Below are positions 1,829 to 45,317 of a DNA stretch of 45,317 nt, one piece after another; within the stretch, counting starts at the first letter, position 1; each line of letters starts with the position of its first letter. The position numbers and the translations under genes are program-made. Source of the DNA: a virus; the IMG/VR virus record IMGVR_UViG_3300010354_000154, positions 1 to 45,317 of that record; one strand, 5' to 3'. Under the pieces are notes generated by a model. The model ran no database searches. It saw only the letters and a list, made by a program, of their open reading frames with translations, and was not told the origin of the DNA.

Positions 1829-1832
1829 TTGT

Positions 1833-9839: not shown

Positions 9840-10550
9840 TTATCCAATACTACCCAAGTTTGTTAAAGTTTGTATTCTAACTGTATAATCAATTTGAATT
9901 AGCCTATTCAAACTTTTTTGAACAGGATGGAAAATCACATGAGTTAGAAGTTTGCCGGTTGTTGTTAATCCACTGGTTCCGTCTACACTTCTTGCTTTTA
10001 AACCAAGTTCGTCAAATGTATAAGTTTCGTTTAGATTTGTACTATTATCAAACGCTGCTTGGCCAGCTGGTTCACCATAATCTAGTAAACAGCTAATTAA
10101 TAAATCTGTAAAAACTTGCCCTGGTGTATGCCGCACTTCAATTTTATTTCTAGTTGGATCAGCATTTAGAGCACTGGTGTCGTCTACGATTTTAGAAAAA
10201 GTTGGATTATAAAGATTACTGTTACTGGTATTAGTGTTAGGAGGGAGATAATTGATAATACCAGTTGGATCAACGCTGGTTCCCCCGTTACCAAAATGCA
10301 TCTCATAGATATAGCTTTGGCCTTTGTTTGCTAGACTATAAGCTATAGATTCAGAGATATTTTCATAATGTATAGCATTACGTTTGTCTATAAAAATTTC
10401 CCCGGACGCTGGATCAAAAATCTTTATGTGTCCTTGAACGTATATCCCACTTTTTTCATCTGGTTGTGCAGATGCTTGATGTTCTTTGTTTTCAATATGC
10501 GTCATATGGCTATTTTCTTCTATATCATTATTTATCTGGTTAGATATCAT
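9840..10550 (-). CDS. Virion structural protein (baseplate/tail-associated, unknown)
   Basis: A 236-aa protein that I recognise only as a type seen in tail operons of marine T4-like phages. Landmarks are GIYVQGHIKIFDPASGEI, ENISESIAYSLANK and YEMHFGNGGT. The longest frame starts in an ATGA overlap with the giant gene (10547-10550). However, a GATAAATA late box at 10529-10536 lies inside this frame. Its predicted start site would give an 18-nt leader to a second Met at 10505 (MTHIENKEH), similar to the 14-17-nt leaders of other late genes here. The protein may therefore be made in two forms, or normally start at 10505 (221 aa). There is no membrane or signal segment. Confidence 0.7.
   Translation of the reverse strand: MISNQINNDIEENSHMTHIENKEHQASAQPDEKSGIYVQGHIKIFDPASGEIFIDKRNAIHYENISESIAYSLANKGQSYIYEMHFGNGGTSVDPTGIINYLPPNTNTSNSNLYNPTFSKIVDDTSALNADPTRNKIEVRHTPGQVFTDLLISCLLDYGEPAGQAAFDNSTNLNETYTFDELGLKARSVDGTSGLTTTGKLLTHVIFHPVQKSLNRLIQIDYTVRIQTLTNLGSIG
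10529..10536 (-). promoter_or_regulatory. T4-type late promoter box GATAAATA inside 5' end of 236-aa gene
   Basis: GATAAATA on the minus strand, 24 nt upstream of the internal ATG at 10505. Spacing matches the boxes before the genes starting at 8573, 27443 and 33518. The leader carries only a weak AGAAGAA ribosome site. Confidence 0.5.
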
Positions 10551-13500
10551 GGTGTATAACTAGGCTCCGCTCTTATAAATTGTGCACCTGGTGTAGTGCT
10601 ATTTTCTATTGTTGTGCTAAATTGTTCCCAAATATTACTTTGTAAAATTTTAACCGAATTTAAAACAATATTTCCATTGGCATTTATTGAACCTAGAGGT
10701 GTTAGGCTAATTATGTTAGCATTAGTACTAGAAATACCAGTGGTCAAACTAACCAAATTGATTCTAGTAGCAGTATTTGCTGCTGTCTGGAAAATGCCCG
10801 TAACAAAATCTACTGCTACTACATTTGCGTTAGTTACACTTTGCAATACTCTGGCGTTGCCAGTATTAGCAAATTGTGTTATATAGTCCCCAGTATTTAC
10901 TGTTATATTTGCATTTAGTAGAAGTCTATACGTTACATTAGATGTGGTTGTAATATTGCCCGAAATAGTATTTGAAACAAAAATTTGTGAATTTGGAATC
11001 AATTGTGCCTGACTACTGTCAGTTACAAGATTGCCGGTAATTATCACACCAGAAGCACCAGTTCCATCTACAGCTCTGTGTAATTGAGTAATTGTGTTTG
11101 CATACACTGGGAATAAGTTTGAACTTGACAAATAAATGTTGGAGTTTGCGTATATATTTCCAGTAGTTGTATAAATGGTATTGAATTGAGCCGGAGTTCC
11201 GGTGGCAGTGTAAAATACCTTTAATCCATCTGTATCCACAGTTATGGTTGCATCATTGACTCCATTGGTGCCATTTAGTTGACTGCCGCTTATTGTAAAC
11301 ACATTGCCAATGAAAATTTCCACACTGCTAGAACTTAATTCAGCTGAGTATGCTGACGTAAATGCTCTGACATTAAATTCAACGCCGCCAACATTTGATT
11401 GAACATTAGAAAATAACACACCAATGTCTACGTCTACCAATGTGCCCACAGGATAGCTAACATTTGCACTCCATGGCACAGCTGATGCAATGTCCCCGGC
11501 TGTGTAATGCTGATAATAATGTATTTTCTCTCCGTTGACAAATACCACCCCAGGAACACCAGCAGCGGGATTTGGTTTTGGTAAATCTTCAACGTTGTCT
11601 ACAAAAACATATGAATCAGATATTGCTAAATTGGAAGTCAGTGATACTGTGTTATTTGCACTAATTCTCGTAAATTCTGGATTTCTATTCATCGGATGGA
11701 AAACACGGAATCCATAAGTTGCTGTGTTTGAAGTGTTATTAGTAAAAACACGCATCTCGAGAGTGTCAAAAATTCTTCCCGGGATTAATTCTTCAGGAGC
11801 ATGACTGCTATAGGTATCAACATATGCACCACCGACAATGTTTATATCTTCAGGTCTAATACCCAATGATGAATCTGTATAGGTACTGTAAATATTTGAA
11901 TCTAATACTGAAGTTTCAAGATCAAGGTAGCTTATGGTAACATTGGCATTTCCTCCGGTATACAATTCTTGTACATTAGACGAAGTTAGCACCCCATCTA
12001 TATAGATATACTCAGGTGTACCAACAGACACTACCGGGAAAATTTCAGAATCTACCGGCACACTTACCACCTGTCTGAAACCTGTAACTGAATGCACTAC
12101 ATCAATGTATCTTGAATTGACGGCATTTGTTAACACATAAGCATTACCTAATGTATTTGACTGTGTAATGACATTTCCTGCGTACACTGTGACAGGATTA
12201 TCTAAAAGCATACGGTAAGTTGTTTCAACAATTTCTCCCGATAATGTCATTGAGTCGCGGTCAACAGAAATAATTTTAAAATATCCATTATTTTTAAAAT
12301 CAAATGAGTAATTACCGTCAATTCTAATAGATTGATCTAATTCAAAACCTAATTTTACAAAATCAAATTGTTCTACGTTTCCACTTGTGATTGTCAATCC
12401 GGTATAGTTAAAGCTAAAAGTATTACCTGATATTTGAAAACTGTTTGCCTTAAATCCAGGTCCTTTGATCAAAACCCCAGGATACTCTATACCACTCATC
12501 AAACTAGAGTAATTTTTTGATAACATGCCTGCACCAGGGCTATAGTAGGTCTTGATTCTATCGGTGGCTTTAAGTAAAACATTACCAGAATCAATTTTGG
12601 TAACTTTGGTATAATCAAAAGGATCGGCTGTTCCAATCTGACTGTTGACCAAAAATGCCTCGCGATTATACGAAACAATATTGCCACTCACTATATATAA
12701 ATTGCCTGAAGCAGCATTTCCAGATATTACAGTTGGGTAAATTTGGATATTGGCAGCGTCATTAACAAAAGGTATAACGTTCGAACTATACAAAATTCTA
12801 TCAAATTTCAACGTGGAATTAGTAGTTCTAACAAGATTATAACTCAAATTAGACTGCGGAGAATAAAACTCATTTTTAAGTAGAGGGTAAATTATTGCTC
12901 CAGATCCGACACCATTGATTGTAATAGTAGGAGTTGAAGTATATCCAGTACCAGGGTTGGTAATAATTACACCTGTTATTTGTTTGGTACTTAAATTAAC
13001 AGTTGTTATTGCAGTAGCCCCGGATCCGCCGCCGCCTGTTATTTCTATATTGGGGGCCAAGGAATAGTTTAATCCAACATTTCCGATTATGTAATCAGTA
13101 ATTTTATAGGTGTAGTTATTATACCAATTTGTATAAGGTTCTACAGTTGATAATGTTTCTTCGTCGCTAGGAACTGTAAACTTTGCTTCATCTACACTGT
13201 ATCTACTTGGCAAGTCAAAATCAGTCCAGTTACCAGATGCTGTATCTAAATTATCGTAAATAGGAAGATATTCACGTAGTTTAGTTCTATATGGTTTTAT
13301 TTCATTTATATAATTTTCATAAAACGTTTGATCGTCTTTGACATAGTTAGGAATTTGCTCTAATTTTCTTAAATTATGAAATACATCAATGAAACTTGTT
13401 TTGAATACCCAGTCTGGTTGTTTTTGTTCACCCAAGATATAGGTAATCATTGCAAAAAATAGTTCATTGAACAAAATCAGTAGATCATTAATAAAAATTT

Positions 13501-16500
13501 CATTATAAACACTATTAAATATTGCATTTAATTCTTGACCAATTTGACTATCAAATCCCAGAGCTCCAAATAAATCTGTGTCAAATCCCGACCCTAGGCC
13601 TGAATTATAAATACTCTCGTCAAACACCAAGGTAGCATTTTGTGCAGCCATTAATTGTAACGCAAGCTGGTCAGTAACTGTATAAATTAACCATTGACCA
13701 TTTCCGTTATCTAACACTTTTATAATGTCATTTTCTTTTAGCGTCAATCCTTGAATATCGCTGTAGGTAGGAACAACATATGTTAAATTACTACCAATTT
13801 CAAAATTTGAATCATACCAATCTACGCTGTTCCAAAAAAGTGTAGTTTTGTAATACTGGATTCTAAACGCAACAAACTCTTGTTGTGCTGCATCATAAGA
13901 ATATATTACCCACTTGTTATCATTTTCAGAATCAACTGGTACTAAAACTTTGTAGCCATCAACCAACAAATTAGGATCTAGATATGACAATTCCAGGAAT
14001 GAATCTACCTGACTATCGAATCCAGATGTTGGTAAAGGTTCTTCGCTATAAAGTGTAGTTGGAGTTCGCAATAACAATATAGGATAGTCAGATATTTTTA
14101 AATTTAAAGTTTCAATAAAAATTCTTAGAGCACTTAATCTATCAACAAACATAGATTGTCTTGGTTGAAACAAAATGCCATATCTATCTTGAACATTCAA
14201 TGCAATGTCCGGTACCAGCGCACCGAGATCATCAAATCCTGTCAAACTATCTTTGAGTTTACTGATAATTTTTTGAGGGAAGGTCTGACTATTACTACCT
14301 TGTTTGATTAACTCATATTCGCTGTGTATTAAATTTTGTCCCTGACTTTTTTGTAAATCAATGTGCAAAATTATCTTATCAGCTCTTAAATTATCGTTAG
14401 AATTGTATAGCGCAATACTGTTAGGAGAAAGCGCAGCTACATAAGGAATTCCTTGATTCTTGGGATCAGTGATATAAGTTTGTAATGATTTGGCACTGAG
14501 AGATCTATTGGTTTTTACTGGATCAACTGAAGTTTTATCCCCGACCCAATAATAATATTTTTGTTTGATAATTCCAGTATCAGGGTCTACAATAGAAATC
14601 TTAGAGTAGGCCGAGTCGTTGATATGTTTTGGTACTCCGTTACCACCATTGGTAATATACTGGCTAGGTAAAAATTCACTTTCTACCCATTCGTAAATCT
14701 TTACCTGGCTGTCAGGAAATAATGCACCCCAATTGTTGTTTCTATATACTATGCTTCCTTGTTCATAGTCAATAAATCTAACCTGCGACAAATCCCACCA
14801 AACTTTGCCAACGTGGCGTTCTGCCCAGTAAAAATCAATGTTTACATTTACATCAGATATTGAAGCAAAGTTGTAACCTGCAGGATCAAAATTTTCTTTA
14901 TAATCTAGCTCTTGATCTGCAATACCTAAAATTTTTCCTTTTGCGGGATCAATATAATCATAAAAATCAATTATCTCAGACGATTCTGAATCGTAAGTGA
15001 AAACAGAAGCAATTGAATCTACACTTACTCTTGATTCTTTAGATCTCAGCAGTTCCCAACCTGCTTTAGATGTCTCGTTGGTATAAAGATAAACAGTACC
15101 TGCCTGATTGAAAGATAGATAATCGTCGTTTGCTACGCCAATGAACAGTGTGTTACCGTTTAACTTAATAGCTCGGCCAAAATCAGTATCAGTGCTTAGA
15201 TTTGGGCCATACAGTGCTTGCGACAATACAAACAGTGATGGAGCTTCGAAACTCTGGAAAGGATTGTCTATTAAATCATAGATATAGACTGCACCTGAAT
15301 CTTTGATAATATCAACAATAACAGTACTGTCATTATCATAGGTGGTATTGCTTGCATCAAATGTAGTGGGAACAAAAACATCTCCGCCGCTGCTACCAAC
15401 TGCTAACACATTTGATTCTGCGTTCAGAGCTATTGAGCTGCCAAATTTTTCACCAGTCTGATTGTCATGAATGATGTGTTGAGTTGTTTCGTATAAATCA
15501 AGTCCAAGATCCTCTAATGCAGTACCAACCCCTGATTTGACATCTAACTTATAACCCAAAGTTACCACTTGACTGGTTATTTTAAGTTTATTTTGATATT
15601 TTTCTGCAGTCACACCCGGAATATTCAAAGTGTTAATTGCTGCGATAACTGCATCCAGTGAAGAGGAATTAAAAACAACATTATTATTATTAATAACTAA
15701 ACTATGACCCGGAGTAACCGTGGGTCCGCTTGTTTTACCAACAATTGATCCATATACTCTGCCTACATTTACTATTCTCGAAACAGCTCCAAATTGATAG
15801 TCTGATTTGTAATAGTTGTTTGTACTAACAATAATGTTACATCCTGTGGAACACATTTCTAAAGCACTACCAAAGTTGAATGACATCCCGGATAAACTAT
15901 TAATTTTTTGATCAAATGCAAACTGATTGGTTTCAACTTGAAGTTTTTGTGATTTAGAAGGAACTCCAAACGGAGGAAATTGTACAGCATTGGCGACTAT
16001 ATAGTAATCTACATTTTCAACAAGTTCAACGTCATTTAACTTTACACTTCTAATAGAATTAAAAGAATTTGGAGCAATATAGGTACTGGCTACTCCGTCT
16101 GTTAAAAATTGATATACTGTACGATGATACACATAGACAGCACCAGATTCGGCGTTGGTGTTAATTGTTTCTATAGGAGCACCTACAACTATTACACTGC
16201 CATCTGAATTAGTGGCAACACTTTGACCAAATCCTGCGGTGCTTGATGCTTCGCTGCTGTAAGGCAAAGTTTCAATGTGTTCATAATAATAATTGCTTAT
16301 AAATGCGCCAATTTTGTCTCCGCTGCTTGGTGCCACAGCAAAGTTTACGTCAGTGCCGTTATCTACGCTGACAACACTGACAGTGAGATTATTGGCAGGA
16401 GTTGTACCACCTACCAATGCACCAGCTATTGTCAAAGTATCCCCGGCAGTAAAGTTTGCTCCGGAACGTATTACCAAAACATCGTTGGTGTATGCTGTTC

Positions 16501-19500
16501 CTGTGGTCAATGGAACTCCCGGAGTAATGCCAGTACCTGTTGCTATAAAAACTGTTCCTGCCAAATTGTCGGCTGCACCAACAGCTACAAAATCAGTAGT
16601 GCCTGGGGTGGCTATTTTATAAATTTTGCCAACAGTAAATCCTATCCCTACCCCGGGTCCTACCAAACTCACTGCAACGTCAAAGACTGCATTTGTACCA
16701 GTACCACCGGTAGCAGGTACATTTGAATATAATCCCAAGGCAGTCGAAGGAGTGCCGTTAAACGAAAAATTATTGATCCCGTTGCTTTTTTGTATTATTG
16801 TGTAATCTTTATACGGAACAAATTCCTGAGATGTCAACTTGTTTGTCAATATAACTTCTGTGGCATTAGAAATCACATTTGGTAGTGTAAATATTGTAGC
16901 TGAACCATTTCCGTTGTATAGTGCTGTGTAAGACGTTCTAAATGGTGCCAATGCATAGCAATAAACTTTGTTTGCGCCTGGTGCAGACACATAAAGAAAT
17001 TTTCCGTCCGACGACATGGCTGAAGAAAAACCAAAATTATCAGCTGCGCTGCCAAGATTGTCAATTAGTATTTGTTGTAATTCTTGATTTTTATAAATCA
17101 AGACCACGCCTTGCTTACTATAACTTTGGGGAGCACCAACACTAACAAAATTATCTCCGTTGGACAATGATTCGCCAAGATATTCGATTTGTGAATTACC
17201 ACTCCTCAGTACTGAAACCAACGTCCATTCATTGTCAACTGTATTTTTTTGAAAAACTCCCACACTCGGCGATGTGTTAGTTGCCGCAGAGTACATGACC
17301 AAACCATCGTTTGAAAAACTAATTACGCTTCCAAAACGTGCAAAGTCGGCATATTGACTTTGATTAAGTGTGAGTTGAGTCTTGTATGACCAAGAATCGT
17401 TTTTGGTATACACACCCCAATTTTTATCGTAATCTAAATTATCAACCCAAACTTTATCACCTGTAATCCAACCTCTAGAGGGTTTTATGTTTACTATGTC
17501 AGTGGCATAATCAATTCTCATTGAGATAAATCGATACAACATGCCGTTACCAATTACAGTTTGAAGTTTTATCAGTGTGTCTAGATTTTGATATAATTTA
17601 GCAGTAAATCTAGTCAAATCAATGATAGAGTTAACTTTATAGAATCCGTCAAATCTTGGGTCAAATCCAACGATAGCTACAATATCATCCACATTTAAAA
17701 TGTGTTGTTCATTGTGTACGAATTCAACTAAATCATCTACATTGTATCTGGCCGCAAAGAGTATTCCTCTTAAATTATCTGTTCTAAGAACATTCCAACT
17801 GTTGTTAAAATCTTTAGCTACCCAAAGTTTCCAGCCTGCACCAATAGCTGACAGATACTGATTTAATGTAGAATAATTGTTTAAATCAAAAATCGTTGCA
17901 TCAACGTCGTCTTTATAAACATATCCTGCGCTAGGCAATGGTTCAATTGAGTTTGAAACATTGATATCTTCTAATTTAAAAATACGAGGATCCCAGGTTC
18001 CACTTATTTTATACAAGTCACTGAATTCATAAGAAACAATATCAGGCTCTGCAACCACCCCGTTGCCAACAAATTGTACAGGAGCAGGGTTATCTAAAAG
18101 TTCAGATTCATCCAATGCTATTTCTATAAATTGACTGTCATCTAGTGCACCATACTCGCCAACCCGCACTGCCCAATTTTCATAAACTTCAATATTGGTA
18201 TTAATATTATTGAATATTGCACCTTTAAGTGCAGTCAACGCATTGGTAGTTCCTTTTTGTTTTAGCAACCCTTGGTAAAACTTTACCTGACTGGTTATAT
18301 CAACACCCAAGTCGGTGAAGTAACTTCTTTCCCGGAAACCTATCAATCCATTGCTAAACAGTTGTAAATTTTCATCGTAAATTTGATTGTCAACATCGTA
18401 AAATCTAGCGGGCAATCCTGCGTTGGTTGCCAAGTTATTAATCATGCCAGATTTAAATTCCGACGATGATAGTAACTGCCAGCTGTTAATTTGAAACTCG
18501 TTTGCGCCTACAACATTTTGTAAAGCAGTGTACAATTTTTCTTTGTGCTTGATTACGGTACCTTTTCGATAATCCGTAACTGGAGCCCATTCATCTACCT
18601 TGGGACTACTGTAAACAAAGCCAGGCAATTCTAAACTGCCATTCCAATCTGCAGTAACTGATCCAAGTATCTTTAATCTAAATTGGCGATTGCCCAGACT
18701 AGGAGCATAGATAATATCATTGAACACAGTTTGATTGTCAATGATAAAAATATGTTCGTTTTGTACAACGTTCAGTTCGGCGAAACCAATTGTCTGATCA
18801 GATAACGACACCAAGCTAAAAACACTGTCTTCTCTATATACTGAAAAATTATTTTTCTTGATTATCTTGCCGTTGATGTCTAAAATTTTTGATCCGTATG
18901 GAATATTTTTAATTTCATCCACCACAGTTGTCTGTCTAGAGAATTTTAGATTATTGTATAACGGAGATAGTACAATAATGGAACCTGTTTTCCATCCTTG
19001 ACTAGACCAGTGTAAAAATTCTTTACAACTCGAGATCCAATCTAATTTTGCGCCTAAATTGACATCATATTCATCAAATATAAATCCCTTAGAAATGAGA
19101 TAATTCTGATATCCTACTAGAAAATCCACTACTTGTTGTTTTGTAGTAAACTCATATCCATATGGTATTACTGAATTGGCATTTTTGCTATCCCGGTATA
19201 TAATTGCTCTGTTGTTACTTTGTGTTATAACATAGGAATCGTTACTAGGAAATACTGGTTTAATGTAAAAGTAGGGACTATTAATATCATATCCAGAGAC
19301 TGTGTACCCGGCAGGACTTTTTTCTACTATTACTGCGCTGACCTTGACTTTGTCTAATGGAGCTCCTTTATACAACTCAATTCTATAGTTTTCGTCGGGT
19401 ATGACGATACTATCGTTGATACTGGTAGGACTACTTTGTTCGGCCAATATTGTAATTAACTTTTTGTCAGTGTATCCGCCAATTCTATAAGTGAACTGTG

Positions 19501-22500
19501 TGCTTAATCTTGATAAATTTGTTTTTATTACACTAACTGCATCCTGGATACCTAAATTTTTCATATAATCAATTATGAAATTAAGATATCCCACACTGTA
19601 TTCAACAGTAGAATCAAATTGATAACCGTTGACTTTTATTGCAGTTGGAGTAATATGTTGTCCGCTATCACTTAAAACAAATTGTGAAGTAATGTAATTT
19701 CTATAATAATTGTCAATATCAATTAGCAACGAAAAAAACATTGCAGGGCGCATGAGAGACATGGCCAATACTACTGCATAAGGATATTCGCTGCTTTTTC
19801 GCCAGGCACTTTCTGCAGGTCCAATGTCGCCCACAGCATAGCTGGCGTTAGCTTTTGAACTATCAAAATCTACTACCAATATATCTGAAGGGTCAATTAA
19901 ATTGCCAGATTCGTCTACAGGAATAAACTTTTGTAAATTTGGGCGTTGATATCTGATATCAAAGCCAGCTCTTTCGCCGGCGTGAATATATCCCAAACTT
20001 AAATCACTCCATAATAATGCATTACCACTCGTATAAGGAGCAGGACCGTATCTATCGTTCCAATAACTAGGTTTAACTGAAAAACCTAGCATTTCCCATG
20101 GGTGTGTATGTGGTCTTTCAGTATCATAAAAATATCTGTAGATTGATCTCCAGGTACCTGGTAAAAACTCTCCGTTGACTGTATCTCTAAATTTCTTGTA
20201 ATTCCAGGTAAATGGGTCAGATGCAACGAAGATGTTATTTGTGTTAAAATCTACTTTGTATGTTCCTGCCCAAGTTAAAAACATTGAACTAATAATTTGA
20301 TTATACTCAGCTAGAGTGTAACCGGTGTTTCTGAATTTTCCAGGAATATGATCATAAAAATTAAAATTATTACTATTATAAGAAATCTTTATATTATTGT
20401 AGATTCTTCTTTCTAATTCTAATAATAAATCATCTCTAAAATCACCAAAACAAGGAGTAATACTGCCGTCGTGTCCTTGTAAAACCTCTACTGGCTCTGC
20501 ATCTCTATAAGTGTTATCAAAAAATATTTCAGGAACATACTTGGGATACAGTCCAAGTCTAGTTGGTGTGGGAGGAACAAAACTTCCCAAGGTATCGCTA
20601 TATTCAATAATTTTAATTACGTCGCCGTACAGTAACACAAAGTCATCTGCAAAATCTATAGCTGGTCTAGACTGATTAAAAGTAAAATCTTGATCTTTTA
20701 TTAAAAGATTAGTAGTTGTAATTCCGTCAACAGTTCTTGTCAAGTACACAAACACTGCTTTATTTTGTACCTTTGTGTCTTCAAATATTTGAGATAATTC
20801 GTAGCTTCTAACTGTGGTAGAAACAACAAAATATTCCGGTAGTTGCACATTAGGCATGGAAGAATAAGGTACCATGTTACTGTCGTAAAATGGAAAAGTT
20901 TTATTCTTTATCTCGTTTATGGTGCTTAAAATTGTATCTACAGATCCAGCAATGTCTGTTATATCTAAATCTAATTTGGTAGCTGTATCTAAAAAATTTG
21001 TTCTGAATTTAGAATACTCGTTGTTTGTGAATTTTAACGCATTTACAAAATTCATTGTTGGGTGAGACAAAAACAAACTGGCATATAACACAGGTGCACT
21101 ATTTTGCACAATGCTTCCGCTTGCAGTTTTATAATTTATGTCTCTCAAATTACTATTGCCAGGGACCGCACCAGTAATAAAAAGATTTTTTTGTGCCTTG
21201 GTGACCAAATGATTACGCATCTGTCCCAGTGTAAGAGAGCTTAGATTTTCATTCTCTCCATTGATATCCAAATTCAAAGGCACTTCGTAATGTGCATTCT
21301 TGAGAACTTGACTACTGTTATAGATCAAGGCAAAGACTGAATCGTTGACAGTTAGTAAATCTTCGTTAATTAAAATTGCATACTTGTCAACAATTTTTGT
21401 TAGGGCAAAATTATCGCTGCTAACAAATTTATTATTAATAAAAATTTTAATATTTGGTGAATCTTCACTTAAATCTGGTAATCCGTCTATAGGAAATAGA
21501 TTGGTTGACCCGTCATAGATAAAGTCATAAATTTGAAACTGTTTACTAAAACTGTCTGAAATATTCCAAATATTTTGTCTAATAGAAGTTGTTCTATCTA
21601 GATTTTTCTGTAACAGACCCGAGTTTGAACTTACAGTACCAGAGGTTCCGCCAGAGGTTATATACTCAAAAGTATCTTCATCAAAATTATTAACAAATTC
21701 TATGTCGCCTTGTGCTACGAAGTTTTTATAGCTCAAGGGAAAACCCAGTACCGGATCATTATTTCCTGTACCTACTTTATATGAAAAAATCTTAGTTCCA
21801 GCAAAACTTGATCCCGGGTAAGTGGAAGTACCTGCCAAACTTGTTCCATTTGAATCAATAATATCAAACAACGGAGACTGATTAATGCCTGTTTTTTGTT
21901 GCGCAGGCAACCAACTAGATCCATTAAAATACCAAGACTTTCCTCCGTTGTCCCCATTCTGCACAATGAGAACATGACCAGCACCAACATCAGCGTCGTC
22001 GGCTTCCTCTATGTAAGCTTTATAAACTACCGGATCCGGAAGCACTGATTCTTGAACAATGTCAAATACATAAATTTTGTTCTTGACTTGTAAATTTTCA
22101 TCATTTGAAAATATTACTCGGTCACCCACTGTTAAAGTTACCGAAGATGATCCTACAGTAAAAGTTTTTTGTGTAAGCGAAGAAGGATCGCAAATTGCCC
22201 CTTGCACTTGTGTAAAGGCGCTTGTTATGACCGTATCTAATATTTGTACAGGTTTTTTTGCCAATGACCCATAATTGTATAACTGTAAATCTGCATCAAA
22301 TTCAATGATTGGTCTTTTTGCTCTATAATCTTGATTATATATAGGAGTGGTATCTAAGTATTCTGCTGTTTTTGTAATAATGTCTACATGAAACCATCTA
22401 TTGGTTCTTGTCCAAGCATTAAGATCAATACTAGCTCTATTAATGGATATGTAATCAGGATTACTTACATCGTTATCTAACTCGTCTGCTGTTAGATCTG

Positions 22501-23977
22501 ATACAAGTATTAGTCTAATACCACTACCTACTCCTTCAACATAGTATGTTTTATTTTGGTATGCTTCGGTCGCAGTTGAATCAAAAGTGACTTTCAATCC
22601 ATTTGTAAAAATTACCCCTTGTGGAGAAGTGTAACTGATTTTGCCCACTATGTCTTGGTCAGGATCAATTGTGTCTTGTGCGGGATCTACAATATTGATA
22701 ATGCCAACTGCATCACTTACAGCAGCATTTTGATAGTATAAAATATTGTTAGGAGCTGTGATCAGTGGAACTAATTTGAAAAAACCATTATCGCTATAAA
22801 ATTCTTGCCCGGCAAAAGTGTTGCCGGCTCTTACTCGAACTTTCTGATTGTCGGAGACCGGAATGGCTGGAGTTAGAATTATTCTGTTTGTTCCCACTTG
22901 ATCAGGATAAATTTGGATTAGAAAAATATCATTTTTTTGTCCAGTGGGTATAAATTCTACATTTTCGTACGGGCTTGACTCACTGTCGTATTGGCTTGCA
23001 TCATACGTATCAAATGTTGCTATTCCGTCGACTATCACAACTGGTGGATCATTCCAATACTCGTCATCAATGGTTGCTTGATTGACAAAAATTAAATATT
23101 TGCCAGTTATCTCTGCTGTTGGACCATCAAGTCCGCCCAATATGTCATTGAGATCGGCTACACTGCATCCTTGAATATCTCGATAACTGTATGAGGTTGC
23201 AAATTCTACAGTACCGGCCAGTGGCATTCCTGTCCACATAATTTGTGCATTGACCAGCGGTACTGTAAATCTTGTTACTCCAAAATCAGTTCCATTATTG
23301 GTAACGCCGTAAACTTCTCTAGTAGAGATAGATAAGTTAAGTGGATCTACCCCAGATTCCCCGGGGCGAGTTTGAATATAGAAATTATTGTCAGGATCGT
23401 TGATAGCAAAATCATACACTCCTCCTCGTGCCAGAGTAATGGTTGGATTTGGGATGCCATTCTGTCCTGTGAAATTATAGGTTTTAGTTACAGAATCATA
23501 TACCACGTTAAATGTGAACTCTAACGGTACCCCAGATGCAGAAACCGTGACAGCATCTGGACCGTTTTCTAACCAATAATATTGGCTGAAATTAATAAGT
23601 TTATCTAAGTCAATTTTTGGATCGTAGGTATAGTATTCGCTTTTAAATAATCTATCATGATTATTTGAAAGTCCACCGTGATAGGCAATTTGATTGATTA
23701 AGTCAAAATATGTAGTAGTAAATTCAATTTCGTCGGTAATTGGATTTTTAATTATAATCGACGATTCTAATTGATAATTTTGTCTGTCGGCACTGGGTTC
23801 CTGTATATAGCTATCAGTGGTTTTATAACTTGGTGCTAACTTTCTGCCAATATATCCGTTTACCTTTTTTAGATTAGGCTCGGATATCAATTGATCAACT
23901 GTAGCGTGTAGAAATTTTTCGTTCGTTTTAGTTCTAAAAATTTCAGGTAAAAATTGTATAGATTTATTAACTGCCAT
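10547..23977 (-). CDS. Giant tail/baseplate structural protein (4476 aa) with embedded beta-propeller
   Basis: A single uninterrupted 4476-codon frame between gp6 and fibre genes. Giant proteins of this type occur in tail operons of marine T4-like phages, and a role as a baseplate-attached fibre or appendage is inferred. Visible parts: an N-terminal region (SIQFLPEIFRT...) likely for attachment; beta domains of the form xVxVfVNxx...DYx...GD near residues 820, 1050, 2350 and 2620; seven FG-GAP-like repeats between about 2210 and 2970 (such as FGFSSAMSSDGKFLYVSAPG and FGQSVATNSDGSVIVVGAP), as in a seven-bladed propeller; a GTTDF...FIATGTG module near 2446-2486; a GGGGSGATA/GTGYTSTPTI module near 3640-3700; and a VFVNGEKIHYY module near the C-terminus. 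Cysteines are very few. It starts 13 nt after the gp6 stop. Confidence 0.85.
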   Translation of the reverse strand: MAVNKSIQFLPEIFRTKTNEKFLHATVDQLISEPNLKKVNGYIGRKLAPSYKTTDSYIQEPSADRQNYQLESSIIIKNPITDEIEFTTTYFDLINQIAYHGGLSNNHDRLFKSEYYTYDPKIDLDKLINFSQYYWLENGPDAVTVSASGVPLEFTFNVVYDSVTKTYNFTGQNGIPNPTITLARGGVYDFAINDPDNNFYIQTRPGESGVDPLNLSISTREVYGVTNNGTDFGVTRFTVPLVNAQIMWTGMPLAGTVEFATSYSYRDIQGCSVADLNDILGGLDGPTAEITGKYLIFVNQATIDDEYWNDPPVVIVDGIATFDTYDASQYDSESSPYENVEFIPTGQKNDIFLIQIYPDQVGTNRIILTPAIPVSDNQKVRVRAGNTFAGQEFYSDNGFFKLVPLITAPNNILYYQNAAVSDAVGIINIVDPAQDTIDPDQDIVGKISYTSPQGVIFTNGLKVTFDSTATEAYQNKTYYVEGVGSGIRLILVSDLTADELDNDVSNPDYISINRASIDLNAWTRTNRWFHVDIITKTAEYLDTTPIYNQDYRAKRPIIEFDADLQLYNYGSLAKKPVQILDTVITSAFTQVQGAICDPSSLTQKTFTVGSSSVTLTVGDRVIFSNDENLQVKNKIYVFDIVQESVLPDPVVYKAYIEEADDADVGAGHVLIVQNGDNGGKSWYFNGSSWLPAQQKTGINQSPLFDIIDSNGTSLAGTSTYPGSSFAGTKIFSYKVGTGNNDPVLGFPLSYKNFVAQGDIEFVNNFDEDTFEYITSGGTSGTVSSNSGLLQKNLDRTTSIRQNIWNISDSFSKQFQIYDFIYDGSTNLFPIDGLPDLSEDSPNIKIFINNKFVSSDNFALTKIVDKYAILINEDLLTVNDSVFALIYNSSQVLKNAHYEVPLNLDINGENENLSSLTLGQMRNHLVTKAQKNLFITGAVPGNSNLRDINYKTASGSIVQNSAPVLYASLFLSHPTMNFVNALKFTNNEYSKFRTNFLDTATKLDLDITDIAGSVDTILSTINEIKNKTFPFYDSNMVPYSSMPNVQLPEYFVVSTTVRSYELSQIFEDTKVQNKAVFVYLTRTVDGITTTNLLIKDQDFTFNQSRPAIDFADDFVLLYGDVIKIIEYSDTLGSFVPPTPTRLGLYPKYVPEIFFDNTYRDAEPVEVLQGHDGSITPCFGDFRDDLLLELERRIYNNIKISYNSNNFNFYDHIPGKFRNTGYTLAEYNQIISSMFLTWAGTYKVDFNTNNIFVASDPFTWNYKKFRDTVNGEFLPGTWRSIYRYFYDTERPHTHPWEMLGFSVKPSYWNDRYGPAPYTSGNALLWSDLSLGYIHAGERAGFDIRYQRPNLQKFIPVDESGNLIDPSDILVVDFDSSKANASYAVGDIGPAESAWRKSSEYPYAVVLAMSLMRPAMFFSLLIDIDNYYRNYITSQFVLSDSGQHITPTAIKVNGYQFDSTVEYSVGYLNFIIDYMKNLGIQDAVSVIKTNLSRLSTQFTYRIGGYTDKKLITILAEQSSPTSINDSIVIPDENYRIELYKGAPLDKVKVSAVIVEKSPAGYTVSGYDINSPYFYIKPVFPSNDSYVITQSNNRAIIYRDSKNANSVIPYGYEFTTKQQVVDFLVGYQNYLISKGFIFDEYDVNLGAKLDWISSCKEFLHWSSQGWKTGSIIVLSPLYNNLKFSRQTTVVDEIKNIPYGSKILDINGKIIKKNNFSVYREDSVFSLVSLSDQTIGFAELNVVQNEHIFIIDNQTVFNDIIYAPSLGNRQFRLKILGSVTADWNGSLELPGFVYSSPKVDEWAPVTDYRKGTVIKHKEKLYTALQNVVGANEFQINSWQLLSSSEFKSGMINNLATNAGLPARFYDVDNQIYDENLQLFSNGLIGFRERSYFTDLGVDITSQVKFYQGLLKQKGTTNALTALKGAIFNNINTNIEVYENWAVRVGEYGALDDSQFIEIALDESELLDNPAPVQFVGNGVVAEPDIVSYEFSDLYKISGTWDPRIFKLEDINVSNSIEPLPSAGYVYKDDVDATIFDLNNYSTLNQYLSAIGAGWKLWVAKDFNNSWNVLRTDNLRGILFAARYNVDDLVEFVHNEQHILNVDDIVAIVGFDPRFDGFYKVNSIIDLTRFTAKLYQNLDTLIKLQTVIGNGMLYRFISMRIDYATDIVNIKPSRGWITGDKVWVDNLDYDKNWGVYTKNDSWSYKTQLTLNQSQYADFARFGSVISFSNDGLVMYSAATNTSPSVGVFQKNTVDNEWTLVSVLRSGNSQIEYLGESLSNGDNFVSVGAPQSYSKQGVVLIYKNQELQQILIDNLGSAADNFGFSSAMSSDGKFLYVSAPGANKVYCYALAPFRTSYTALYNGNGSATIFTLPNVISNATEVILTNKLTSQEFVPYKDYTIIQKSNGINNFSFNGTPSTALGLYSNVPATGGTGTNAVFDVAVSLVGPGVGIGFTVGKIYKIATPGTTDFVAVGAADNLAGTVFIATGTGITPGVPLTTGTAYTNDVLVIRSGANFTAGDTLTIAGALVGGTTPANNLTVSVVSVDNGTDVNFAVAPSSGDKIGAFISNYYYEHIETLPYSSEASSTAGFGQSVATNSDGSVIVVGAPIETINTNAESGAVYVYHRTVYQFLTDGVASTYIAPNSFNSIRSVKLNDVELVENVDYYIVANAVQFPPFGVPSKSQKLQVETNQFAFDQKINSLSGMSFNFGSALEMCSTGCNIIVSTNNYYKSDYQFGAVSRIVNVGRVYGSIVGKTSGPTVTPGHSLVINNNNVVFNSSSLDAVIAAINTLNIPGVTAEKYQNKLKITSQVVTLGYKLDVKSGVGTALEDLGLDLYETTQHIIHDNQTGEKFGSSIALNAESNVLAVGSSGGDVFVPTTFDASNTTYDNDSTVIVDIIKDSGAVYIYDLIDNPFQSFEAPSLFVLSQALYGPNLSTDTDFGRAIKLNGNTLFIGVANDDYLSFNQAGTVYLYTNETSKAGWELLRSKESRVSVDSIASVFTYDSESSEIIDFYDYIDPAKGKILGIADQELDYKENFDPAGYNFASISDVNVNIDFYWAERHVGKVWWDLSQVRFIDYEQGSIVYRNNNWGALFPDSQVKIYEWVESEFLPSQYITNGGNGVPKHINDSAYSKISIVDPDTGIIKQKYYYWVGDKTSVDPVKTNRSLSAKSLQTYITDPKNQGIPYVAALSPNSIALYNSNDNLRADKIILHIDLQKSQGQNLIHSEYELIKQGSNSQTFPQKIISKLKDSLTGFDDLGALVPDIALNVQDRYGILFQPRQSMFVDRLSALRIFIETLNLKISDYPILLLRTPTTLYSEEPLPTSGFDSQVDSFLELSYLDPNLLVDGYKVLVPVDSENDNKWVIYSYDAAQQEFVAFRIQYYKTTLFWNSVDWYDSNFEIGSNLTYVVPTYSDIQGLTLKENDIIKVLDNGNGQWLIYTVTDQLALQLMAAQNATLVFDESIYNSGLGSGFDTDLFGALGFDSQIGQELNAIFNSVYNEIFINDLLILFNELFFAMITYILGEQKQPDWVFKTSFIDVFHNLRKLEQIPNYVKDDQTFYENYINEIKPYRTKLREYLPIYDNLDTASGNWTDFDLPSRYSVDEAKFTVPSDEETLSTVEPYTNWYNNYTYKITDYIIGNVGLNYSLAPNIEITGGGGSGATAITTVNLSTKQITGVIITNPGTGYTSTPTITINGVGSGAIIYPLLKNEFYSPQSNLSYNLVRTTNSTLKFDRILYSSNVIPFVNDAANIQIYPTVISGNAASGNLYIVSGNIVSYNREAFLVNSQIGTADPFDYTKVTKIDSGNVLLKATDRIKTYYSPGAGMLSKNYSSLMSGIEYPGVLIKGPGFKANSFQISGNTFSFNYTGLTITSGNVEQFDFVKLGFELDQSIRIDGNYSFDFKNNGYFKIISVDRDSMTLSGEIVETTYRMLLDNPVTVYAGNVITQSNTLGNAYVLTNAVNSRYIDVVHSVTGFRQVVSVPVDSEIFPVVSVGTPEYIYIDGVLTSSNVQELYTGGNANVTISYLDLETSVLDSNIYSTYTDSSLGIRPEDINIVGGAYVDTYSSHAPEELIPGRIFDTLEMRVFTNNTSNTATYGFRVFHPMNRNPEFTRISANNTVSLTSNLAISDSYVFVDNVEDLPKPNPAAGVPGVVFVNGEKIHYYQHYTAGDIASAVPWSANVSYPVGTLVDVDIGVLFSNVQSNVGGVEFNVRAFTSAYSAELSSSSVEIFIGNVFTISGSQLNGTNGVNDATITVDTDGLKVFYTATGTPAQFNTIYTTTGNIYANSNIYLSSSNLFPVYANTITQLHRAVDGTGASGVIITGNLVTDSSQAQLIPNSQIFVSNTISGNITTTSNVTYRLLLNANITVNTGDYITQFANTGNARVLQSVTNANVVAVDFVTGIFQTAANTATRINLVSLTTGISSTNANIISLTPLGSINANGNIVLNSVKILQSNIWEQFSTTIENSTTPGAQFIRAEPSYTP

Positions 23978-33580: not shown

Positions 33581-34447
33581 ATGAAACACAATTATCTTAA
33601 CAACAGAGATATACTTAAAGAAATCCATAAAAGTAAGACAACTTACTGTAGTTTTTTAACCAAAGAAGATGCGGATTACGACTTGATTCTGCCATCAGTG
33701 GATAAAATTAACAAGAAAAATATCATGCTGGGACGCAAAGCTCGAGCCGAAAGATTAACAAGAGTCGAGTATGACAAAGCACAAAGTCAGTCAACTGAGA
33801 AACTGCGTTTAGATGATTTTACAGTAAAATTATCTAAAGTGGCCGACGTAGATGTAGTATTTAGAATAATGGCGTGGGATCACATTCCAATGGACAGCAA
33901 AAAAAGTAAACCAATTGATCCCGATGCAGAACCAATTATAACAGAATACGACGATGCAAGTGCCACAACTGGAAAGTATATGAAAGTAAATTTTCCCCCG
34001 TTTCAGCATTACAAAATTGACGAAGATGGTACACCCTATTGTGTTGGAAAAAGCCATTGGCAAGGTGACCTAGAGAATGGAAAATTCTGCAGAGATCATG
34101 GCACAATGACTAATAAACTAGCACACATGTTTATAAAGCTGTGCGAACGGTATGCCACACGCAGTAATTGGCGCGGCTACACTTACAATGATGAAATGCG
34201 ATCGCAAGCACTATTACAATTATCGCAGATTGGACTACAATTCGATGAGAGCAAGTCACAAAATCCTTTTGCCTATTATACTGCCGCTATCACTAATAGT
34301 TTTACTCGGGTTCTTAATATCGAGAAGCGTAATCAGAACTTACGCGACGATATTCTCGAAATGAACGGACTAACTCCTAGTTACACCAGACAAGGCATGG
34401 GATCGTGGGGCGGAAATCCCCAGTCCGGCGAGTACAGTGATGATTGA
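33581..34447 (+). CDS. 55: Late transcription sigma factor, gp55-like
   Basis: A 288-aa protein. The C-terminal half (about residues 175-265) has the gp55 pattern: a helix KLAHMFIKLCERYATRSNWR, then GYTYNDEMRSQALLQL, then FDESKSQNPFAYYTAAITNSFTRVLNIEKR, matching the sigma region 2-like core by which gp55 recognises the TATAAATA late promoter. T4 gp55 has 185 aa, so there is an N-terminal extension of about 100-160 residues, including a YCVGKSHWQGDLENGKFC stretch. Position next to the gp47/46 genes is as in marine T4-like phages. It is transcribed away from the baseplate operon, and the late boxes listed here are its likely targets. Confidence 0.82.
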   Translation: MKHNYLNNRDILKEIHKSKTTYCSFLTKEDADYDLILPSVDKINKKNIMLGRKARAERLTRVEYDKAQSQSTEKLRLDDFTVKLSKVADVDVVFRIMAWDHIPMDSKKSKPIDPDAEPIITEYDDASATTGKYMKVNFPPFQHYKIDEDGTPYCVGKSHWQGDLENGKFCRDHGTMTNKLAHMFIKLCERYATRSNWRGYTYNDEMRSQALLQLSQIGLQFDESKSQNPFAYYTAAITNSFTRVLNIEKRNQNLRDDILEMNGLTPSYTRQGMGSWGGNPQSGEYSDD

Positions 34448-34452
34448 AGTAA

Positions 34453-35970
34453 ATGAATTTAGAAAAACTAAGATCAACTTTAAGTAAAAAATATGACCTA
34501 ATTTGTTTTGAAGATCTAGCTGATTATAGATCTACTCATGGCGCTATATTTCATTTTTTAACCAGCTGCTATCAATCAAAATTTCAAAACAATCAAAGAT
34601 TGATTTTTTATAGCTCGTATGATCTAGAACAAGAATTTGTCAATCATATCCAACGTGCTATAAAAAGTGTCGACATTGGAAATTTTTTTATACTTTTTTG
34701 TACTCCCTTTGATATTTCTAAAAAATTACAAATTGCACGTGACAAATTTAATGAACCAGATTTAGTTATTCCACAGATAACTATTCCTATTGAAAAAACC
34801 AAAACCTTCACAGTATCTAATTTTGCTAAAAATTATGATACATTGTGTGCATTACCGTTTTCTGCATTATCAATTTTTAATAATAATGTTGTACCTTGTT
34901 GTAAATTTGAATCTGACCCCGTTAGTACTATCAAAGAAAATACTTTGGTAGAAATCTTCTCTAGCAAAAGAATGCAAGACATTAGAGAAAAGATGCTACA
35001 AGGACAGGCATTGGACGAATGTAAAGTTTGTTGGCATCATGAATCAATACAAAACTCTAGTCTTAGAAAATATTATTTAGAAAAGTACAAAAAAAACTTG
35101 GACTTCGAGTTGATTGATTCTCCCCAGCTGGAAGAGATACAAATTGCTCCCAGTGTTGTGTGTAATTTTAGTTGTAGGATATGCAATCCAATGACTAGCT
35201 CTAAAATTGCAACTGAAGAAATGACACATGCTAAAACTTCTCAAGAAGTTGACACAATTAAAAAAATCATTAAATTATCAGTTGATCAAAACAGTTATCA
35301 TAATGATTTATTATTAAACAATGTTGAAGAAACCTTTAAAAATATTAAAACAATAAGGTTAGTGGGCGGAGAACCTTTTTTATGGCCTCATCTCGACAAA
35401 TTTTTATCAAGCTTGATAGATTTAAATTATGCAAACAAAATCAGATTAGAATTTAATACTAACGGTAGTGTATACCCAAGTTCCTCGATTGAATACCTAA
35501 AACAATTTGGACAAATAGAGATATTGATCAGTATTGATGCGATTGGCAAACAATTTGAAATTCAAAGAGGAGGCCAATGGGACAAAGTTGATGAAAATGT
35601 AAAACTTTTTTCAAATTTAAAAAATGATAATTTTTTTGTCAAGTTATCTCCCACAGTTAATATTCAAAATTTACTCTATCTAGATGAACTTGTGCATTAT
35701 GCAAACAAAAACTGTTTTGAAATAATTTGGTGGTATTTGGAAAATCCAGATTATTTGTGTATAGATAATGTTACAGAAAAAGTCAAAGAACTTGTAGAAA
35801 AAAAATATTGCAACCACTCGCAAGCGGAATTACATTCTATTTGGCTACGGATGAAAAATTCTAAGCCAGTGTCTGGTAAGAAATTTATAGAATACATAAA
35901 CACATTGGATCAAAGACGTCGACAAAATTTTAGAGAATTTCACCAAGAAATATACCATGCAATGTCCTAA
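34453..35970 (+). CDS. Radical SAM protein, CC...CxxC architecture with N-terminal extension
   Basis: A 505-aa radical SAM enzyme. CNFSCRIC (C237, C241, C244) is the cluster motif and VGGEPFL the GGE strand. Upstream of the barrel C132, the pair C149-C150 (NNNVVPCC) and C190/C193 (CKVCW) form the same auxiliary-cluster module as in the protein at 1833. About 115 additional N-terminal residues have no recognisable domain. The coding sequence is very AT-rich compared with gp46/47 downstream, which hints at recent acquisition. It starts 5 nt after the gp55-like stop, with a weak ribosome site. It is one of two radical SAM genes wedged between gp55 and gp47. The substrate is unknown. Confidence 0.88.
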   Translation: MNLEKLRSTLSKKYDLICFEDLADYRSTHGAIFHFLTSCYQSKFQNNQRLIFYSSYDLEQEFVNHIQRAIKSVDIGNFFILFCTPFDISKKLQIARDKFNEPDLVIPQITIPIEKTKTFTVSNFAKNYDTLCALPFSALSIFNNNVVPCCKFESDPVSTIKENTLVEIFSSKRMQDIREKMLQGQALDECKVCWHHESIQNSSLRKYYLEKYKKNLDFELIDSPQLEEIQIAPSVVCNFSCRICNPMTSSKIATEEMTHAKTSQEVDTIKKIIKLSVDQNSYHNDLLLNNVEETFKNIKTIRLVGGEPFLWPHLDKFLSSLIDLNYANKIRLEFNTNGSVYPSSSIEYLKQFGQIEILISIDAIGKQFEIQRGGQWDKVDENVKLFSNLKNDNFFVKLSPTVNIQNLLYLDELVHYANKNCFEIIWWYLENPDYLCIDNVTEKVKELVEKKYCNHSQAELHSIWLRMKNSKPVSGKKFIEYINTLDQRRRQNFREFHQEIYHAMS

Positions 35971-43235: not shown

Positions 43236-43816
43236 AGATGTTGGTAACAGGCGGCAATAGAGGGCTAGGTAAACACCTAGTTGAACAATTTGCAGGCACA
43301 AGCATTAGTCGTGCAGACGGCATTGATATTACCCGCAATGCGGATGTGATTGCTGCAATGAGCTTGGACTACGATGTGTTTGTCAATAACGCATTTGATG
43401 GTCCTCCGCAAGAGGCATGGGCCAACTTTGCTCAATCACAGGTGTATTTTGCTGTTTACGATGCGTGGAAAAACGCCGATAAATCTGGATGGATAGTTAA
43501 TATTGGTAGCGTGGGCAATAAAACTGTCGTGGCTCCAGAACCAAGATTTGAAACTTATCGTGTAGCAAAAGCAGCCTTAGAACATGCTAGTCGACAGGGC
43601 ACAGCAGCATTTAAAGCAAATGCAGTATCGTTTAAAACCACACTGATTACACTGGATCGATTAGATACTGAACTTAGTCGTAGTAGACCCACATGGACAG
43701 AAAATGGAATTGATCTAGACGCAGTATCTAATTTTATAAAATATGCCCAAACTTTGAGCCCAAACACATGTATAGAGGAAATAACATTTTATTGCAATCT
43801 AGACTACAAGGCATAA
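43232..43816 (+). CDS. Short-chain dehydrogenase/reductase (short form)
   Basis: A 194-aa Rossmann-fold oxidoreductase. TGGNRGLG (residues 6-13) is the TGxxxGxG nucleotide-binding turn, VNNAFDG stands in place of NNAG, S93 (NIGSVG) and Y109-R-V-A-K113 are the catalytic Ser/Tyr/Lys. It is about 50 residues shorter than usual SDRs and lacks much of the C-terminal substrate loop region. It probably uses NAD(P)H, but cofactor choice is not clear from the sequence. The ATGA overlap with the radical SAM gene and GGAGG just upstream tie it to that cassette. I infer that it oxidises or reduces an intermediate or product of the radical SAM pathway. Confidence 0.85.
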   Translation: MKMLVTGGNRGLGKHLVEQFAGTSISRADGIDITRNADVIAAMSLDYDVFVNNAFDGPPQEAWANFAQSQVYFAVYDAWKNADKSGWIVNIGSVGNKTVVAPEPRFETYRVAKAALEHASRQGTAAFKANAVSFKTTLITLDRLDTELSRSRPTWTENGIDLDAVSNFIKYAQTLSPNTCIEEITFYCNLDYKA

Positions 43817-43826
43817 TTAATGCTGT

Positions 43827-44246
43827 ATGTCTTGGCTATTCGAATCCACTCTTGTGGAATCACTTCCTGAAGATTGTGTAGGATTTGTGTATTTGATAAC
43901 GAATACTGTATCTGGGCGCAAATACATAGGGAAAAAATTAGCCAAATTTTCAAAAACTACAGTACGAACAGTAAAACTTAAAAATGGTAACAAAAAGAAA
44001 AAGAAGATCAGAAGCAAAATAGATAGCGATTGGCTCACTTACTGGTCTAGTTCAGATGAGTTAAAAGCCGATGTCGCAGCACTGGGCGAGTCTAATTTTA
44101 AGCGAGAGATTTTAAGATATTGTAATTCAAAAAATGAATTATCATATTATGAGGCAAAATATCAATTTGAGCACGATGTTTTATTAAACGAGGATTTGTG
44201 GTACAACGGATGGATATCAGTGAAGGTAAGAAAATTCAAACTGTAA
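43827..44246 (+). CDS. GIY-YIG nuclease-like protein (putative homing endonuclease)
   Basis: A 139-aa protein with a GIY-YIG-type N-terminus: GFVYLITN (residues 19-26) and KYIGKK (YIG at 33-35), followed by a lysine-rich insertion (about 50-67) and YYEAKYQ (E near 117), where the metal-binding Glu is expected. There is no recognisable separate DNA-binding domain. Such small GIY-YIG proteins are common in T4-like phages as free-standing endonucleases of the Seg type, or may be other nucleases. The start at 43827 is 10 nt after the dehydrogenase stop, and the ribosome site is weak. Its 3' end lies just upstream of the second GIY-YIG gene. Confidence 0.7.
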   Translation: MSWLFESTLVESLPEDCVGFVYLITNTVSGRKYIGKKLAKFSKTTVRTVKLKNGNKKKKKIRSKIDSDWLTYWSSSDELKADVAALGESNFKREILRYCNSKNELSYYEAKYQFEHDVLLNEDLWYNGWISVKVRKFKL

Positions 44247-44252
44247 TAAATA
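44245..44252 (+). promoter_or_regulatory. Possible late promoter box AATAAATA
   Basis: AATAAATA directly after the stop of the first GIY-YIG gene. It could drive the second GIY-YIG gene (ATG at 44315) with a leader of about 57 nt. That leader contains an unusually G+C-rich stretch (44256-44290). Confidence 0.35.
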
Positions 44253-44314
44253 GTAGTGCGAGTCGCGATGCGTCAACATCCACCCGCTCTAACAGTTTAG
44301 AAGGAACTATCAGC

Positions 44315-44971
44315 ATGTCTATTTATAATACTGAAAAGTGTTATGTCTATTGGTTGCACTTACCAGAGCACACAGATATTCATTCTCAAGGATATATAGG
44401 TGTTTCAATTGATCCAAAACAGCGTTTGTGGGAACATAAAAACGATGCTAAAAAAGGTACGCACCACAACAAATATTTAGAAAGAATTATTGATAAACAC
44501 GAGTTAATTCAGTCTATTATCTTTTCCGGCGATATTGACGCTTGCTATACATTTGAAGAAGATCTCCGTCCAACAAAAAATATAGGATGGAACTTGAATA
44601 AAGGAGGAGATTGTCCTCCGTCAAATAAAGGTAAAAAATTTTCGCAAGAGCATTGTGCTAATATCACAAAAGGTAAATTAGGTAAAAAAAGATCTCCAGT
44701 TACAGAAGAAACTAAATTAAAAATTTCACAGGCACAAACAGGTAAAAAACTAACAGCAGAGCATAAACAAAAAGTTAGAGAAGCAAGATTAGGTACAACA
44801 AGATCAATAGAAACAAAGAAAAAATTGTCAGAATCCCATAAAGGTAATATACCAGGCAACGCAAAATCAATCACAACATTTTTAGGCACATTCTCATCTA
44901 TCGCAAAAGCCGCAAAGGCACACAATTTATCTAGATTCAAATTTGAAAAGCAATATCTTAATACAATCTGA
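44315..44971 (+). CDS. GIY-YIG homing endonuclease with NUMOD3 repeats
   Basis: A 218-aa protein. Its catalytic domain has CYVYWLH (GIY variant, residues 9-15), GYIGVS (YIG 27-29), R37 and H41, and NLNKGG (N93), the usual GIY-YIG end. The following region has four lysine-rich NUMOD3-type DNA-binding repeats (about 103-180; e.g. GKKFSQEHCANIT, EETKLKISQAQTGKKL, AEHKQKVREARLG, ETKKKLSESHKG). A C-terminal FLGTFSSIAKAAKAHNLSRFKF segment resembles a NUMOD1 helix-turn-helix. I prefer the ATG at 44315, with AAGGAA 9 nt upstream, over an earlier in-frame ATG at 44198 lying inside the preceding gene. The gene is followed directly by a structured non-coding region. Confidence 0.85.
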   Translation: MSIYNTEKCYVYWLHLPEHTDIHSQGYIGVSIDPKQRLWEHKNDAKKGTHHNKYLERIIDKHELIQSIIFSGDIDACYTFEEDLRPTKNIGWNLNKGGDCPPSNKGKKFSQEHCANITKGKLGKKRSPVTEETKLKISQAQTGKKLTAEHKQKVREARLGTTRSIETKKKLSESHKGNIPGNAKSITTFLGTFSSIAKAAKAHNLSRFKFEKQYLNTI

Positions 44972-45317
44972 CACCAAGTCATTCCCATATTAAAAACAAG
45001 TTAGGCAGTTAAGCTAGCACAAGCTAACATCGTGTGCCCTATACCTGGTTGAAATACACGCAGGGACGGAAGACTCGCCGCTGCAACGAGCACTCAACTA
45101 CTACCCTTCGGGATGAAGATCGCTAATTGCCGCGATTTAGTTGTTTGAATAGGATTAATAAGGCTAAAAAGACGTGCGAGCGATCGCACACGGTTACTTA
45201 CATGCTGATATATGTAAATTAACCCGCCGTTGTATAAGAACGGAGCTCGAGGTACCGGACAACCGCCTCTGTAATGCTCTAATATCAGTGACTGTGCTAC
45301 TCGGATGAAGCATATAT
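44972..45317 (+). ncRNA. Candidate structured RNA of unknown class (no coding gene seen)
   Basis: 346 nt to the window edge without a credible open frame. From 45001 to the edge G+C is about 46 percent by hand count, clearly above the coding sequence just upstream. Stem candidates in order: GTT-A-AGC/GCTAAC (45008-45028), CGTGT/ACACG (45031-45060) with CCCT inside its loop complementary to AGGG at 45062-45065 (possible H-type pseudoknot), CTCG/CGAG (45074-45090), ATCGC/GCGAT (45119-45136), GTGCGA/TCGCAC closed by a GCGA tetraloop (45174-45189), TTACAT/ATGTAA (45198-45217), CCGTT/AACGG (45227-45243), and GGAGC/GCTCT around GAGG/CCTC (45242-45280). The transcribed strand is not certain. It could be a regulatory RNA, the 3' part of an intron, or a new class. 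Confidence 0.5.
45174..45189 (+). other. Perfect hairpin with GCGA (GNRA) tetraloop
   Basis: GTGCGA (45174-45179) and TCGCAC (45184-45189) pair perfectly across the loop GCGA, a GNRA tetraloop, typical of folded functional RNAs and not of intrinsic terminators (no T run follows). Confidence 0.6.

Follow-up and report, generated by a model that had tools for sequence, protein, structure and literature searches.

Among the described phage-borne RNAs, the closest analogues of the RNA reported here are GOLLD and ROOL, both of which are stand-alone RNAs of large size and ornate, pseudoknotted fold that occur in phages and integrated elements. Their function is unknown, and they are thought to work as a folded object or as the scaffold of a complex (PMC12286853). 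A likeness of another kind exists to phage ICP1 and its satellites, the PLE, whose transcriptomes are dominated by ncRNAs (PMC7567579), as these also concern a lytic phage and elements living off it. HEARO and the IscB omega RNA resemble the present case in that a conserved RNA lies beside a nuclease gene. Finally, the motif Polynucleobacter-1 has been listed as probably RNA and probably cis-regulatory, with an occurrence in Burkholderiales and fresh water (Weinberg 2010; PMC2864571, Table 1); in the literature searched it is named in that publication only, as a line of a table. Here, we analyzed the viral record IMGVR_UViG_3300010354_000154, whereby the window, a stretch of 45,317 nt, represents the entire linear IMG/VR record. 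The window encodes gp46/gp47-like proteins as well as a gp55-like late-transcription sigma factor (33581-34447, plus strand; phrog_12791, E 7e-80), and the phage is therefore T4-like. It also carries several radical SAM genes (446-2897, minus strand; 34453-35970, plus strand) and a 4476-aa ORF (10547-23977, minus strand), which is unusually long for a 45-kb record.

The tract under study (44972-45317, plus strand) is located 3' of the last plus-strand ORF and reaches the record end. Among the listed ORFs no credible one falls into it, and, as a preliminary description of the sequence had stated, it is the sole gene-free stretch of more than 300 nt. A hidden coding frame was considered and rejected: there is no conserved frame, the only open one at the edge is a minus-strand frame of 73 aa, and no reading frame was found to continue beyond the window. 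The G+C content, previously given as about 46%, was measured as 45.4% compared to 37.0% for the whole window; since 1.8% of all 346-nt windows are equally G+C-rich, the tract is raised in G+C but not unique. The stem candidates that had been pointed out are present. However, their support comes from comparison and not from single-sequence folding: folded alone, the tract is no more stable than shuffled sequence (z -0.46), with the same outcome for the minus strand, so that the number of stems by itself proves nothing.

The preliminary description had recognized no RNA class in the tract, suggested a new one and proposed a covariance-model search. This search, carried out with cmscan against Rfam 15, yielded a single match in the window, namely RF01718 (Polynucleobacter-1) at 45012-45146 on the plus strand, covering the full model (1-141 of 141) with 108.8 bits at a gathering threshold of 37. 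Because RF01718 thus accounts for the 5' third of the RNA at an E-value of about 1e-22, the class is not an unknown one. A cow-rumen-2 match (20.2 bits, E 0.79) did not recur in the relatives and was therefore regarded as a chance match. The Rfam models of GOLLD and ROOL gave no match in the window at gathering, none in 43800-45317 at E-values up to 5, and none in 13 loci at E-values up to 10. tRNA genes, which are frequent near GOLLD and ROOL, were found neither in the window nor in 47 viral loci. The likeness to these two RNAs is thus one of kind only, as the RNA described here is shorter, does not lie near tRNA genes and is not homologous to them by Rfam.

Homologues were searched in IMG/VR with a pattern built from the invariant core motif. 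This core-pattern scan identified at least 120 contigs with the RNA, and 96 distinct cores, that of the window included, among the matches listed. Conserved sequence starts about 55-60 nt ahead of the core motif and continues for about 385 nt past it; therefore, RF01718 represents only the 5' third of the molecule. In the phage relatives the RNA has a length of about 430-450 nt; it starts where a segE-like gene ends and finishes with a terminal hairpin. Its 3' end consists of a hairpin xTGAGCGnnAGCGAAx and a terminator-like hairpin, which are often followed by the TATAAATA of the next gene. The window contains the 5' part of this RNA, about 310 of about 430 nt (45005-45317, plus strand), with homology to more than 60 viral loci up to the last base. 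The contig stops approximately 110 nt before the terminal hairpin, in line with the earlier suggestion that the RNA runs past the window edge, and the R1 match to a model of the 3' module (84.4 bits) is truncated at the contig end. By homology, the tract is thus the 5' three quarters of a large noncoding RNA whose first 141 nt correspond to RF01718. It resembles Polynucleobacter-1 in this full-model match and in the freshwater and Burkholderiales setting, but differs from it by its length of 430-450 nt, its extra modules and pseudoknots, its mainly phage-borne occurrence and the lack of a fixed neighbour gene. None of 50,697 phage records gave a blastn match to the RNA, and it was found in no cultured phage.

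For the structural analysis, 51 phage sequences were aligned. RNAalifold predicted 76 pairs, 47 of them with double changes, and a covariation scan added one stem and pseudoknots. The final structure comprises 86 pairs with three pseudoknots, whereby 96.7% of cells are paired compared to 80.7 +/- 0.3 in shuffled alignments and at most about 41% if the partners are slid by 1-3 columns. Double compensatory changes occur at 61 of the 86 pairs and the covariation score amounts to 0.493 versus 0.184 for shuffled alignments; these counts lean towards the structure, which was derived from the same 51 sequences, and the slid and shuffled controls lie far below. Comparative folding, which had also been proposed, hence revealed strongly covarying homologues, and this overrules the candidate explanation of chance structure due to raised G+C, despite the z-score of the single sequence. 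The window copy forms 60 of the 65 mappable pairs. G-U pairs are common (e.g., 23 UA and 22 UG at columns 129-152), so that the functional molecule is the plus-strand RNA. On this comparative evidence, the tract is part of a real structured RNA with a conserved fold, including three pseudoknots, which acts as plus-strand RNA.

All structural features described in the following lie on the plus strand. Near the 5' end of the RNA lies an H-type pseudoknot (45012-45037; helices 1-2) that combines AGC/GCT (45012-45014/45023-45025) with GCACA/TGTGC (45017-45021/45033-45037) and has 98-100% of its cells paired, with compensatory changes. A different pseudoknot had been put forward in the preliminary description, in which CGTGT pairs with ACACG (45031-45035/45056-45060) in combination with CCCT/AGGG. 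The former pairing can be drawn, but it forms in only 71% of cells in the 51 relatives and its covariation is not above that of shuffled alignments; the CGTGT region instead pairs upstream within the H-type pseudoknot described above. CCCT/AGGG is nearly invariant, and covariation is therefore uninformative. Thus, the preliminary description was right in assigning the tract to a structured phage RNA that contains a pseudoknot, and its stems do covary, whereas the pairing named is not supported. Helices 2-10, which make up the RF01718 motif structure, are formed in nearly all of the 51 relatives. The motif also contains an invariant hairpin, CCTA.ACCTGG..CAGGGA.GG (45038-45069), whose CC/GG and CCTG/CAGG pairs do not vary in the 51 sequences and thus fall outside the covariation test. 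Helices 8-10 (45091-45147) consist of a long stem (45091-45100/45138-45147) enclosing a UUCG hairpin, which is GAAA in relatives, and a further stem (45118-45123/45132-45137); here, 98.8-100% of cells are paired and double changes occur. Helix 11 is a variable stem with the GNRA loop that had been noticed before (GTGCGA-GCGA-TCGCAC, 45174-45189), and GNRA loops occupy the same place in many relatives. It is followed by a hairpin (45192-45224) whose loop GATAT (45207-45211) is pseudoknotted with ATATC (45282-45286). These helices 12-13 are 99.6% paired, all five pseudoknot pairs show double changes, and the loop and distal strand occur as AGCGT/ACGCT, AGTAT/ATACT, GATAT/ATATC and TGTAT/ATACA. 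A further module (45230-45279; helices 14-16), supported by the covariation scan, contains the stems GAG/CTC (45243-45245/45277-45279) and GAGG/CCTC (45249-45252/45266-45269), the latter hairpin being crossed by the pseudoknot TTGT/ACAA (45230-45233/45259-45262).

The genomic setting of the phage copies is dominated by segE. Of the roughly 120 viral loci among the matches listed, 107 have the RNA immediately behind the end of a SegE-like GIY-YIG gene; the wider neighbours vary. Nine further loci, including the window, have other genes placed between segE and the RNA. A PDDEXK_15 nuclease gene stands in for segE in L069 and L112, with the RNA kept. Unrelated genes separate segE from an intact RNA in L010, L026, L028, L037, L039, L045 and L099; judged by eye, some inserted genes are sulfotransferase-like and one is B12/radical-SAM-like. 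The segE-RNA junction is an insertion hot spot. In the window, the segE-like gene (43827-44246, plus strand; PF19835, E 6e-32) is chimeric, as 43809-44034 is 96% identical to L033 and the 3' half differs. The native segE 3' end persists as a remnant left after insertion (44983-45011, plus strand), where a 77-nt segment starting at 44983 is 98.7% identical to L033. Between both lie a leader with the late-promoter-like motif AATAAATA (44247-44314, plus strand) and a GIY-YIG/NUMOD3 homing endonuclease gene (44315-44971, plus strand; PF01541 above cut-off, PF07460 weak) that is missing from most relatives. The leader shows a 79-nt match of 90% to L107, where it lies ahead of a different GIY-YIG gene, and the insertion looks like an ordinary homing event. 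The shared segment (44247-44325) also occurs in L175-L181, precedes three different GIY-YIG genes in several contigs and carries AATAAATA/CTAAATA and GTCGCGATGCGTCAACATCCAC. Its late-type promoter motif is complementary to the start-codon region, onto which it can fold (z-score -1.6); this is reminiscent of how late-promoter hairpins control T4 homing endonucleases.

A scan of bacterial genomes gave 21 loci, 17 of which are true RF01718 copies, and 19 copies were found in bacterial contigs. The hosts are mostly Burkholderiales and other betaproteobacterial MAGs, together with one Nitrospira-labelled MAG. The isolate Limnohabitans sp. Bal53 harbors two RNA copies, and a third DUF6641/recombinase element of this genome (L167) has no detectable RNA; among 300 genomes of its order, three carry the RNA above the cut-off, two of them new. 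Judged from these searches, many uncultured T4-like phages possess the RNA, as do integrated elements of freshwater bacteria. The bacterial RNA measures about 470 nt or more and adopts a fold of its own that is backed by compensatory changes (115 pairs, of which 40 show double changes). It is divergent from a DUF6641 gene in seven of eight extended loci and lies upstream of a small tyrosine recombinase gene in six of them; several loci also encode an AAA protein and a larger integrase, and the cargo appears by eye to include a type III restriction-modification-like pair. Small proteins starting with MRIxE are encoded beside DUF6641 in L151, L154 and L157. Three copies are broken, whereby that in L126 breaks off close to an IS3-type element (ALIL pseudoknot match) and those in L125 and L142 are truncated. 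segE is absent from the bacterial loci, and no protein is common to elements and phage loci. With the phage-derived model of the 3' module, no bacterial copy was detected at E-values up to 5, so that homology in this part rests on L069 and L095, which are intermediates joining both RNA forms. DUF6641 was examined as an RNA-binding partner, but its AlphaFold model (pLDDT 80) had no convincing match in the PDB. DUF6641 genes without the RNA exist, and viral contigs gave one distant DUF6641 match, with no RNA there.

In all 19 bacterial copies a TAAATA motif, which resembles the T4 late promoter, is located just 5' of the RNA. The RNA begins right after it and stops before the next gene, and no sigma-70 -35 box was seen by eye near this motif in the 19 copies. 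In the window phage NATAAATA is present ahead of several structural genes. The TAAATA motif may therefore be a late promoter read by a phage sigma factor, in which case the element RNA would appear once a T4-like phage provides the late sigma factor. Late-type promoter motifs are not enriched in the 900 nt upstream of the phage copies; in phages, transcripts passing through the segE unit would give rise to the RNA, with the terminal hairpin as its end.

These data bear on several explanations. It might be that the RNA is a cis-regulatory 3' untranslated element of segE or its operon that sets mRNA stability or termination, as its position directly behind segE in most viral loci and the annotation of the short motif by Weinberg 2010 would suggest. 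We consider this unlikely, since bacterial copies lack segE and have their own start motif and end, unrelated genes replace or separate segE while the RNA stays intact, and the complexity of the fold far exceeds what a 3' end requires. The inconstant neighbour gene and the promoter-like motif of the bacterial copies likewise count against the cis-regulatory annotation of RF01718. More doubtful still is a role in which the RNA serves SegE as partner or guide, comparable to HEARO or the IscB omega RNA, for which the tight linkage in spite of varying neighbours, the position 3' of the nuclease gene end and the PDDEXK nuclease in the same slot of two phages would speak. Here, each occurs without the other: the RNA persists without SegE, as in bacteria, and behind five SegE-like genes sampled from other phages there is neither such an annotated RNA nor a long gene-free stretch. 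Moreover, the alignment shows no guide-like hypervariable single-stranded segment. Thus, the RNA is neither a segE element nor an obligate partner of SegE.

Replication and packaging sites are common to helpers and satellites in other systems, which would also fit a DNA-level element that merely looks structured; this is highly improbable and largely refuted by the frequent G-U pairs, which fit an RNA transcribed from only one of the strands. A somewhat better, though still minor, chance is given to an RNA of satellite-helper conflict, whereby the copy made by the element would usurp or block its phage counterpart in the course of infection. This would agree with the sharing of the RNA between lytic T4-like phages and integrative elements, the late-type promoter motif and restriction-modification-like cargo of the elements, and the prominence of ncRNAs in ICP1 and PLE (PMC7567579). 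On the other hand, related elements such as L167 have DUF6641 and the recombinase without the RNA, and the elements were not found as packaged small contigs. As elements and phage loci share no protein, the case for satellites is built on the RNA and the promoter motif only; PLE are satellites of ICP1, whereas the elements described here are known from their integrase, DUF6641 and AAA genes and the TAAATA motif only.

The explanation that we regard as probable is a large stand-alone ncRNA, with RF01718 as its first 141 nt, that acts in trans in lytic infection as a folded object. It fits best because the preceding gene varies, the RNA has its own 3' hairpins and the bacterial copies have their own start motif. 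Such an RNA would work by itself or scaffold a complex, either with protein or self-assembled; by analogy to GOLLD and ROOL, it might form an RNA particle, folded or multimeric, during lytic infection. The copy in the elements would be explained by their living at the expense of T4-like phages or interfering with them, and the presence of the RNA there suggests, by analogy, a role in phage-element dealings as the ncRNAs of ICP1 and PLE might have. More tentatively, the RNA could constitute an ornate class common to lytic T4-like phages and to integrative elements, whose copy would be turned on by the phage late sigma factor; it would serve either in helper-satellite conflict or as an RNA machine of infection common to both. 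What was known before is the 5' third; the RNA is larger, phage-borne and more elaborate than recorded. A little-studied motif of 141 nt thus makes up the first third of a phage RNA that is large and highly conserved, and whose full length would correct the Rfam family RF01718. The RNA is common to lytic phages and chromosomal elements, its full structure is now offered for test, and it adds a new example to the study of the role that ornate RNAs play in phages.
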